A stretch of DNA of 64,000 nucleotides from Geothrix sp. 21YS21S-4. GTDB lineage: Bacteria; Acidobacteriota; Holophagae; Holophagales; Holophagaceae. The position numbers and the translations under genes are program-made. The stretch is from contig NZ_CP132719.1 in assembly GCF_030845995.1 (NCBI RefSeq), positions 2,790,001-2,854,000 of the forward strand. The letters run 5' to 3'. Positions 35,116-37,998 of this stretch are shown in pieces. Within the stretch, counting starts at the first letter, position 1. Every line of letters starts with the position of its first letter. Under the pieces are notes generated by a model. It worked only from the letters and a program-made list of their open reading frames with translations, searched no databases and was not told where the DNA came from.

Positions 35116-35577
35116 ATGCGCCGCGTTCTCCTACCCGCCCTCACCCTCCTCGCCGGGTCCTGCGTCCCATTGGCGGCCCAGTCGGCGATGGTCTCCCTCG
35201 TCCGCCAGCCCCGGGCCACCGCCCTGGAATTCACGGTCCCGATCACCGATCTGGAGGCCAAGAGCCATGGGGACTCCACCTACGCCCACCTGGGCGTGGG
35301 CCTGGGCCTCCGCCACTGGGACGACGGGGACACCGCCCTCCGGTTCGTGGCCGACGCCAACGCCTCCGGGGGCAAGTTCTTCGGCGCGCTCGGCGCCATC
35401 GTGGAGATCCCGCCGGGCGAAGGCGGATTCATCGGCCCCCGCCTTCGCCTCGGGTGGGCGTTCCAGCGCGCCTGGGCCCTCAGCCTCGAAGGCGAGCACC
35501 TGGAGCGCCCCTTCACCCACGGCCTCACCCCCCGCCGCCGAAGCAATCTGGGGCTGGCGCTGACGGTCCGGTTCTAG
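35116..35577 (+). CDS. exported beta-barrel-like hypothetical protein
   Basis: This 153-residue protein has a signal peptide ending in PLAAQ and alternating amphipathic strands (THLGVGLGLRHW-like, LGAIVEIPPGEGG, LRLGWAFQRAWALSLEGEHLER), with a final strand ending in RF, typical of small outer membrane barrels. I recognise no specific family. It follows the GNAT gene by 32 bases on the same strand and ends 13 bases from the converging dehydrogenase gene. Confidence 0.65.
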   Translation: MRRVLLPALTLLAGSCVPLAAQSAMVSLVRQPRATALEFTVPITDLEAKSHGDSTYAHLGVGLGLRHWDDGDTALRFVADANASGGKFFGALGAIVEIPPGEGGFIGPRLRLGWAFQRAWALSLEGEHLERPFTHGLTPRRRSNLGLALTVRF

Positions 35578-35590: not shown

Positions 35591-36451
35591 CTACTCCACG
35601 CCCGCGGCGTAGGTCAGGTTCAGCAGGGCCATGGCCCGGGTGACCTTCCCGATGCTGTTGCGGGTGGTGTCGGTGTAGGGGATGCCCCGGGCGTCCAGGG
35701 CGTCGTAGTCGAAGTTGCCTTCGCCGCTGAGGTCGAAGCACAGGGCGCCATCCTTGATCCATTCGGTGGGAATCCGGTAGCCGGAGGCCGGCACGGCGCT
35801 GACGATGACGTCGGCGATCCGAATGAACCCCTGCAGGTGGTCCTTGTTGGTGTTCGCGTGGCAGAGGATGGGCGTGGCCTTCAGGTTGGCCACCATCGCG
35901 GTGAGGGGCCGGCCGATGCGGAGGCTGTCGTTGATCACCAGCACGGTCTTGCCCGCCAGCCAGTTCTCCCCGAAGCCCCGCTTCAGGGTCTTCACGATGG
36001 CGCGCGCGGTGCAGGGCGTCATGCAGCGGTGCTGGGTGCCGTCGTCCATCCGCTTCCGGTACTTGGTGAGGAACCCGATGTTGATGGCGTGGAGGCCCTC
36101 GATGTCCTTGCTGGGATCCACCAGGTCCATCACCTCGTCGTCCTTGATCTCCGGATAGCGCAGGGGATAGAAGATGAACACGCCGTGGGTCTTCTCGTCC
36201 TGATTGAGGCGGGCGACCAGCTTCACGATCTGCATCCCGTTCTCCACGCGCAGGTCCGCCGCGTTGATCCCCAGATCCTCGCAGTCCTTCATCAGCCAGC
36301 GCTGGTAGGTGACGCTGCCCGGATCGCCGCTACCCAGGATGACCCCCAGCCCCGGCGAAAAACCCAGCTTCTTCACGTTGGAACGCACCAGCTCCAGGTA
36401 ATGGCGGGCCGTTCCCTGGCAGTCGAGCTTTCCCGTCAGCGTGGTGGGCAT
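35591..36451 (-). CDS. methylenetetrahydrofolate dehydrogenase, MTD1-like (divergent FolD family)
   Basis: This 286-residue protein is a FolD-family member but lacks key bifunctional residues. In FolD the YxxxK lysine is catalytic; here the segment reads YQRWLMK with Leu at that place. The VQLPLP loop is FIFYPLR, and KDVDG is KDIEG. Instead VINDSLRIGRPLTAMVAN, TPCTARAIVKTL, GYRIPTEWIKDGALCF and KVTRAMALLN resemble the yeast MTD1 class, an NAD-dependent dehydrogenase without cyclohydrolase activity (comparison from memory). It should oxidise methylene-THF to methenyl-THF. Its leader has a TAAACT -10 and GAGG before the ATG. Confidence 0.78.
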   Translation of the reverse strand: MPTTLTGKLDCQGTARHYLELVRSNVKKLGFSPGLGVILGSGDPGSVTYQRWLMKDCEDLGINAADLRVENGMQIVKLVARLNQDEKTHGVFIFYPLRYPEIKDDEVMDLVDPSKDIEGLHAINIGFLTKYRKRMDDGTQHRCMTPCTARAIVKTLKRGFGENWLAGKTVLVINDSLRIGRPLTAMVANLKATPILCHANTNKDHLQGFIRIADVIVSAVPASGYRIPTEWIKDGALCFDLSGEGNFDYDALDARGIPYTDTTRNSIGKVTRAMALLNLTYAAGVE

Positions 36452-36519
36452 GAAGCACCTCGCCTGCCAGTTTATTCCATGCCCCCCCTATCCGCGCGGC
36501 GGGACTCTATTCTGGTTCC

Positions 36520-37998
36520 ATGCGCCCTTTCAAGCCCAATCCCGGCGAACTCCAGCGGCGGCTCCGCGCGGCCTATCCCGACGCCCACTGCGCCCTCGAC
36601 CACCGCGACCCGTTCCAGCTCGTGGTGGCCACCATCCTGAGCGCCCAGTGCACGGACGCCCGAGTGAACCTCACCACCCCCGCCCTCTTCGCCCGCTATC
36701 CCGACGCCGCCGCGCTGGCCGGTGCCCGGCAGGACGAGCTGGAGGGCCTGATCAAATCCACGGGCTTCTTCCGCAACAAGGCCAAAAACCTCATCGGCCT
36801 GGGCCAAGCCCTGATCGCGCGCCACGACGGCAAGGTGCCCTCGGATCCCGAGGCGCTGGGCGCCCTCCCCGGCGTGGGCCAGAAGACCGCCAACGTGGTG
36901 CTGGCCAATGCCTTCGGCGTGCCCGCTCTGGCGGTGGACACCCACATCTTCCGCGTGGCGCGGCGGCTCGGCCTGTCCCAGGGTTCCACCCCGGAAAAGG
37001 TGGAGGCGGACCTCCGCCGGCTGTTCCCCCGGGAGGACTGGATCGTCCTCCACCACCAGCTCATCTTCCATGGCCGCCGCGTGTGCGACGCCCGCCGCCC
37101 CGACTGCCCCGCCTGTCCCCTGCTGGACCTGTGCCCCACGGGCCTCGGGCTGATGGAGGATCCCCACCTCGGCGTGAAGCTGACGACGAATCCGGCGCCT
37201 CCCGCGAAGGGGCGCGAGCGGAAAGCCGCAGCCAGGAAGGCCCTGCCTGATCTCCCCCCGCTCTCGTCCGGCTTCCCCCGCCGCGTCATCAGCCTGGTGC
37301 CGTCGGTGACGGAGCTGCTGGCGCAATGGGGGCTGGCCACGCGGATCGCCGGCCGCTCCAGGTTCTGCGTGGAGCCCCGGTGGATCCGGAACACCGTCCC
37401 CTCGGTGGGCGGGACGAAGGATCCGGACCTCGACCGCATCCGCGACCTGGCGCCGGACCTGGTGATCCTGGAGCGGGACGAGAATCCAAAGTCGGTTGCC
37501 GACGCCCTGACGGCCCTGGGCATTCCCTGGCTGGCCCTGGAGATCCGCACGGTGAAGGATGCCGCCGCGGCGCTCCGCGACCTGGGGAAGCGCCTGGGCG
37601 TTCCCGAGGCTGCCGAGGCCCGCGCCGCGGCCGTGGAAACCGCCCTCAAGGGCCGCTCGCGAAAGAAGGGACCGCGCGCCCTCGCCCTGGTCTGGAAAGG
37701 TCCCTGGATGAGCGCCGGCCCGGATACCTACGTCGGCGACCTCCTGCGCCAGGGCGGCTTCACCGCCGTCGGTCCCGACCGCTATCCCGCGCTTACGGAC
37801 GAGGATCTGCAGGCCCTCGCGCCCGACCTCGTCCTGCTCCCCAGCGAGCCCTACCGCTTCACCCGCCGCCACCAGGCCGACCTCCAGAAACTCCTCCCCG
37901 ACACCGACATCCGGCTGGTCGACGGCAAGGCGCTGACCTGGTACCTCAGCCGGACGGAGATGGGGCTGGAGCTGGTGCGGAGCCTTCACGGCGACTGA
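36520..37998 (+). CDS. nth: endonuclease III fused to a BtuF-like helical-backbone metal receptor domain
   Basis: This 492-residue protein joins two domains. Residues 1-210 are complete endonuclease III: HhH LPGVGQKTANVV (116-127, Lys122), catalytic Asp140 in VDTHIF, and the iron-sulfur cysteines C189, C196, C199 and C205. It removes oxidised pyrimidines and cuts abasic sites. After a basic linker, residues about 254-492 form a periplasmic-binding-protein fold like BtuF (RVISLVPSVTELL, VGGTKDPDLDRIRDLAPDLV, WYLSRTEMG) but with no signal peptide. The frame is continuous. TATTCT lies six bases before the ATG with no ribosome site. What the second domain binds inside the cell (cobalamin, heme or a metal) is unknown. 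Confidence 0.85.
   Translation: MRPFKPNPGELQRRLRAAYPDAHCALDHRDPFQLVVATILSAQCTDARVNLTTPALFARYPDAAALAGARQDELEGLIKSTGFFRNKAKNLIGLGQALIARHDGKVPSDPEALGALPGVGQKTANVVLANAFGVPALAVDTHIFRVARRLGLSQGSTPEKVEADLRRLFPREDWIVLHHQLIFHGRRVCDARRPDCPACPLLDLCPTGLGLMEDPHLGVKLTTNPAPPAKGRERKAAARKALPDLPPLSSGFPRRVISLVPSVTELLAQWGLATRIAGRSRFCVEPRWIRNTVPSVGGTKDPDLDRIRDLAPDLVILERDENPKSVADALTALGIPWLALEIRTVKDAAAALRDLGKRLGVPEAAEARAAAVETALKGRSRKKGPRALALVWKGPWMSAGPDTYVGDLLRQGGFTAVGPDRYPALTDEDLQALAPDLVLLPSEPYRFTRRHQADLQKLLPDTDIRLVDGKALTWYLSRTEMGLELVRSLHGD

Follow-up and report, generated by a model that had tools for sequence, protein, structure and literature searches.

A FolD-superfamily protein with an MTD1-type active site is kept beside FolD in Geothrix and its relatives

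Besides an ordinary FolD, the genome of Geothrix sp. 21YS21S-4 (NZ_CP132719.1, a single contig of 3.08 Mb) encodes a second, divergent member of the tetrahydrofolate (THF) dehydrogenase/cyclohydrolase superfamily. The gene lies within the 64,000-nt stretch of DNA that we analysed, here called the window, and we refer to its product as the window protein. In our judgement this protein is, with fair probability, an NAD-linked and probably monofunctional methylene-THF dehydrogenase that has an MTD1-type active site and works beside FolD.

The mtd1-like gene (35591..36451, minus strand, as are all features of the gene given below) is an open and complete frame of 286 aa that starts with ATG, 4 bases behind a likely ribosome-binding site, AGGTG (36456..36460). 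The encoded protein passes the Pfam cut-offs for both domains of the superfamily and is thus a member of it: an N-terminal catalytic domain, PF00763 (THF_DHG_CYH; residues 10-118, 36098..36424; 68.1 bits, cut-off 32.8), is followed by a C-terminal NAD(P)-binding domain, PF02882 (THF_DHG_CYH_C; residues 140-282, 35606..36034; 66.6 bits, cut-off 27). None of the 25 NCBIfam FolD models listed among 30 matching reached its cut-off (best 121.8 against 401), a weak test given that the genome's own FolD passes one of its 25 listed models (354 against 333). Structure predictions from 9 and 38 aligned rows gave mean pLDDT values of 49.1 and 49.9, too low for a fold search. An nth fusion gene begins 68 bases upstream in the opposite direction, and the downstream genes, likewise on the opposite strand, are an ORF that ends at 35577, a GNAT-like gene and kdsA (named from sequence). 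Because the adjacent genes run the opposite way, the mtd1-like gene is apparently a single-gene unit. The 492-aa upstream ORF (36520-37998, plus strand) fuses endonuclease III with a helical-backbone metal receptor domain (TIGR01083, 261.1 against 211.7; NF038402, 154.9 against 30), and its likeness to BtuF is weaker. A match to this fusion ORF, counted regardless of whether the fusion is whole at each locus, adjoins the mtd1-like gene in 41 of the 48 loci examined; six of the remaining seven contigs start at or just before the gene, and one locus (L039) has room and no match. No Rfam family matched at the gathering score within the 64-kb window.

An earlier note on this DNA had claimed that the FolD catalytic Lys and the VQLPLP and KDVDG motifs are absent, and had likened the protein to MTD1. 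Alignment bears out the first claim, and the likeness of the active site holds against the sequence of yeast MTD1 (PDB 1edz). The residues by which we recognise a bifunctional FolD, namely the Lys of YxxxK, the Gln of VQLPLP and the second Asp of KDVDG, are all replaced. YQRWL (residues 49-53, 36293..36307) stands in the register of YxxxK, keeping the substrate Tyr as Tyr49 and carrying Leu53 for Lys; IFYPLR (residues 93-98, 36158..36175) replaces VQLPLP, with Phe94 for Gln; and KDIEG (residues 115-119, 36095..36109) replaces KDVDG, with Glu118 for the second Asp. The PGGVGPxT loop of FolD reads RNSIGKVT. In one alignment, all 12 Holophagaceae proteins carry Leu, Phe and Glu at the three positions, all 19 FolDs keep Lys, Gln and Asp, and yeast MTD1 has Thr, Tyr and Glu. 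Tyr49, Leu53, Phe94 and Glu118 are invariant in 38/38 aligned members, as is much of the nucleotide-binding domain, and dN/dS lies between 0.08 and 0.19 in six of six comparisons, the mark of purifying selection. The changed residues are therefore the product of neither sequencing error nor decay.

The Saccharomyces cerevisiae enzyme (PDB 1edz, 1ee9), which is monofunctional and NAD-dependent, has the same two domains, keeps the Tyr and, like the window protein, carries an aromatic residue for Gln and Glu for Asp along with a changed Lys. Despite this same kind of catalytic change, yeast MTD1 is an active dehydrogenase. The two proteins also have the stretches VIN.S...GRPL and GKVT.AM in common. 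They differ in that yeast MTD1 has an insert of about 27 residues ahead of the SDVVITGVP stretch and an Arg at the position of Asp175, whereas the window protein is bacterial and shares 34% identity with it.

Replacement of the three residues need not abolish the cyclohydrolase. In the silkworm enzyme, according to Table 2 of PMC6443876, alanine mutants of Lys, Gln and Asp kept this activity (k cat/K m 0.097, 0.22 and 0.097, against 0.13). The same paper describes Lys-Ala and Gln-Ala as retaining both activities and Asp-Ala as retaining cyclohydrolase with an undetectable dehydrogenase k cat/K m for the folate substrate; of the mutants it describes, Tyr-Ala alone lost all activity. The window protein has the still acidic Glu118 at the silkworm Asp position. 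Since the silkworm mutants kept cyclohydrolase, its loss in the window protein is uncertain, and the case for it depends on the likeness to MTD1 as a whole.

The cofactor positions point to NAD. According to PMC3368264, the 2'-phosphate of NADP is bound in the human and Leishmania enzymes by three residues, Arg, His and Ser. Aligned with these, the window protein has Asp175 in place of the Arg, within VINDSLRIGRP (residues 172-182, 35906..35938), and His198-Ala199 (35855..35860) in place of the His-Ser pair, so that the His is kept and the Ser replaced. Asp175 is invariant in 38/38 aligned members, and position 199 is Ala, Gln or His, never Ser, among the 12 Holophagaceae rows; the genome's own FolD retains Arg, His and Ser. 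An acid replacing the 2'-phosphate Arg argues against NADP, and Asp175 together with Ala199 suggests a preference for NAD. Yeast MTD1 keeps the Arg and has the other two positions changed; if both proteins prefer NAD, they would therefore have reached that preference by different routes.

If the window protein makes methenyl-THF without cyclohydrolase activity, a separate FolD or FchA should exist, as the earlier note had predicted. We found a normal FolD (L001, at G000:C1:457240) that keeps the usual catalytic residues as well as those for the 2'-phosphate. It belongs to the same superfamily and is 34% identical to the window protein, but the two differ at the three catalytic positions, the PGGVGP loop and the 2'-phosphate residues, and stand apart in all five trees described below. 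A stand-alone FchA was not found in the genome: the sole PF04961 (FTCD_C) match sits in a 615-aa formimidoyltransferase-cyclodeaminase fusion, which scores below cut-off with the FchA model (153.9 against 275). Three PurU matches in the genome likewise fall short of the cut-off. Matches over cut-off besides FolD were to Fhs, MTHFR, GcvT and FTCD. With neither a stand-alone FchA nor an over-cut-off PurU found, FolD is the expected source of cyclohydrolase activity. The Fhs (L109:1408-3348), 646 aa in length, matches a model of 556 positions over 615 residues, which suggests an insert of roughly 60 residues.

A profile of the MTD1-type proteins, searched against 396 Acidobacteriota genomes, gave at least 491 bits in all but three of the 39 that belong to the window's family (36 genomes), and at most 121.4 bits in the other 357. 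Across 93 genomes of the class, the gene was found in 0/16 outside the family. The 77 family genomes comprise 57 with both genes, 11 with FolD only, 6 with the MTD1 type only and 3 with neither; the corresponding numbers are 40, 5, 2 and 1 for the 48 good genomes (completeness at least 90%, contamination at most 5%). The two good genomes with the MTD1 type only fit the roughly 1.5 expected from incompleteness. Because most relatives keep the mtd1-like gene beside a normal FolD, a separate NAD-linked one-carbon step is probable.

The mtd1-like gene is absent from all genomes examined of genera g7 (4 genomes) and g9 (2 genomes). In g9, folD lies directly beside fhs (G308:C1:1868739-1871304; G332:C4:5638-8208), and the g9 FolDs (L089, L094) do not group with L001 and L095 in the tree, with modest support. 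The three g5 genomes (G174, G316 and G455), all Holophagaceae, measure 0.9-1.2 Mb with a completeness of 84-97% and may represent reduced or host-associated lineages. All three keep the MTD1-type gene and FolD, and in none was an Fhs or FTCD match found; two 1.2-Mb genomes without either match are among the 40 good genomes that have both genes. Comparing the window's genome with G316 gives identities of 68% for the MTD1-type proteins and 55% for the FolDs. We considered a tie of the mtd1-like gene to Fhs and rejected it, since an Fhs over cut-off is lacking from 20 of the 42 good genomes that bear the MTD1 type; a tie to FTCD was likewise rejected, since all three g5 genomes carry the gene and neither FTCD nor Fhs was matched in them.

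Beyond these genomes, a scan of named records with short exact peptides, which detects close relatives only, returned 44 loci titled Geothrix, Holophagaceae or, less exactly, Acidobacteria. Matches to the window protein occur in 296 of 72,556 plasmid records, all below 60% identity and at most 31.6% among the 30 listed. Yeast MTD1 as the query matched 260 plasmid records (15 listed), and L103, a second acidobacterial type discussed below, matched 91 (15 listed). Among all these plasmid matches, seven were read for catalytic residues, and all seven keep Lys, Gln and Asp; the remaining matches may include MTD1-type proteins. In phages, 52 of 50,697 records match, at no more than 29.2% identity among the 10 listed, and 29 pattern stretches in viral contigs included no relatives.

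With the window protein as the phmmer query, yeast MTD1 (1edz) scores 94.5 bits over two stretches (residues 30-200 and 209-279), and the best FolD in the PDB scores as high, at 95.5 bits. Yeast MTD1 as the query gives 92.7 bits with the window protein against 64.3 with its top-scoring FolD in the PDB. Two FolDs from other Holophagae, however, score 75.6 and 76.0 bits with it, above the 59.3 bits of the lowest full-length Holophagaceae members. Global identity does not discriminate, as it is 34% both to yeast MTD1 (274 aligned residues) and to the genome's own FolD (265 aligned residues). Five LG+C20 trees of 32 or 33 rows were built; they are unrooted, yeast MTD1 is their sole fungal sequence, and their rows include no bifunctional enzyme from eukaryotes. 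All five keep the proteins of Holophagaceae separate from the 19 FolDs. The branch between the 14 MTD1-type rows, yeast and L078 included, and the 19 FolDs has support of 98/97. Counting the Holophagaceae proteins with the yeast row or L078, where present, outside the grouping, support is 100/99 in two trees, and 97/98 and 99/98 with motif columns removed.

Whether the family is kin to fungal MTD1 is a separate matter, on which the likening to MTD1 holds in part. Yeast MTD1 falls on the Holophagaceae side with a support of 98/97 with L078 and 92/91 without it, in unrooted trees with long branches and one fungal sequence; after removal of the catalytic and nucleotide-motif columns, the join has 91/90, or 88/91 without L078, in trees that are again unrooted. 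A branch of 100/94 in the full tree sets L078 nearer the Holophagaceae proteins than yeast MTD1 is. Because the trees are unrooted, the branches long, the fungal sequence single and a eukaryotic bifunctional enzyme absent, shared ancestry with fungal MTD1 is plausible and no firmer than that. The competing account, on which the Holophagaceae protein descends independently from FolD and converged on its active site while being no particular relative of MTD1, is a real possibility, if somewhat short of probable. It draws on branches as long as 3.7-4.7 changes per column for yeast and 5.1-5.6 for L078, on the missing root, on an identity to yeast MTD1 no higher than that to FolD and on the drop of the join to 92/91 without L078. 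That the join nonetheless outlives the removal of L078 and of the motif columns argues against convergence, as do the stretches VIN.S...GRPL.A..AN and GKVT.AM, which the two proteins have in common beyond the three positions. Convergence concerns origin and is compatible with the function that we favour.

The remaining alternatives concern that function. A divergent FolD relative that is still bifunctional, its cyclohydrolase kept by another route, would accord with the silkworm mutants of PMC6443876 and with the two good genomes that hold an MTD1-like copy and no FolD match. We think it improbable in the face of the fixation of Leu53, Phe94 and Glu118 across the 38 aligned members, the replaced PGGVGP loop and the normal FolD retained in 40/48 good genomes. 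Quite unlikely, to our minds, is a folate- or NAD-binding protein without catalysis, such as a sensor or regulator: the loss of the catalytic Lys and the single-gene unit, with no one-carbon gene recognised alongside, would suit it, but Tyr49 and Glu118 do not vary, nor does much of the nucleotide-binding domain, and yeast MTD1 is an active dehydrogenase with similar changes.

A second, far-diverged MTD1-like protein occurs in another acidobacterial family. It is encoded in G187 (L078/L103) and G441 (L104), whose proteins are 74% identical to each other and are the sole strong matches among 61 genomes of their order. The three catalytic positions hold Met, Phe and Glu. Like the window protein, these proteins have a KDIEG (L103) or RDIEG (L104) motif and FNSS...G.PL; they differ from it in a longer N-terminus and an identity of 28-34%. 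PF00763 is below cut-off in L103 and unreported in L104, so proteins of this type are easily missed. Elsewhere in each of the two genomes lies a weaker match (22.2 and 24.8 bits), which is probably FolD. The type is patchy in its order and was perhaps transferred.

Under the favoured reading of an NAD-linked dehydrogenase beside FolD, the window protein would use NAD+ to oxidise serine- or glycine-derived methylene-THF to methenyl-THF, or run the reverse with NADH, and would have little or no methenyl-THF cyclohydrolase activity. The ordinary FolD would provide the cyclohydrolase step to 10-formyl-THF together with an NADP-linked dehydrogenase, leaving the cell with NAD-linked and NADP-linked ways through the same step. 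Where Fhs is present, 10-formyl-THF could drain to formate with a gain of ATP. Because Fhs does not reach the cut-off in 20 of the 42 good genomes with an MTD1-type gene, the general role would have to differ from this drain and may be, for example, formyl-THF supply or the redox link itself.

The proposed activity is not new in bacteria, as NAD-dependent and monofunctional dehydrogenases are known biochemically in acetogens, according to PMC9124964. The monofunctional enzymes of Clostridium formicoaceticum and Acetobacterium woodii, likened here by description only, would catalyse the same reaction; their cofactor is NAD by the titles of works cited in PMC9124964, and PMC6443876 names NADP+ as the cofactor of a monofunctional enzyme from Peptostreptococcus productus. 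Within the searches made, the apparent novelty is that Acidobacteriota have a sequence lineage of MTD1 type, retained alongside FolD; the titles and abstract openings listed from the open-licence literature contained no report of an MTD1-like protein in this phylum. PMC11064299, which surveys the family across the tree of life, treats MTD1 as fungal and regards its placement as difficult. One of its passages gives MTD1 a cyclohydrolase function only; the next sentence and the cited titles describe a dehydrogenase, and we follow these. According to the same survey, a single FolD is usual among prokaryotes, though there are exceptions, and the stems of major phyla show no ancient duplications.

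A second copy, MTD1-like and spread across a bacterial family, would count among the exceptions to the single-FolD pattern of PMC11064299; it may have arisen by duplication or by transfer. As a broader and more tentative proposal, possible rather than probable, Acidobacteriota may harbour an overlooked bacterial MTD1-type lineage of at least two types that shares ancestry with fungal MTD1, splits one-carbon oxidation into NAD and NADP branches beside FolD and is important enough to survive in genomes of 0.9-1.2 Mb in which neither Fhs nor FTCD was found. If our reading of the protein is right, it would be wrong for this common family to model all proteins with FolD domains as bifunctional, fungal MTD1 would gain bacterial relatives and cofactor partitioning in one-carbon metabolism would become testable in cultured Geothrix.
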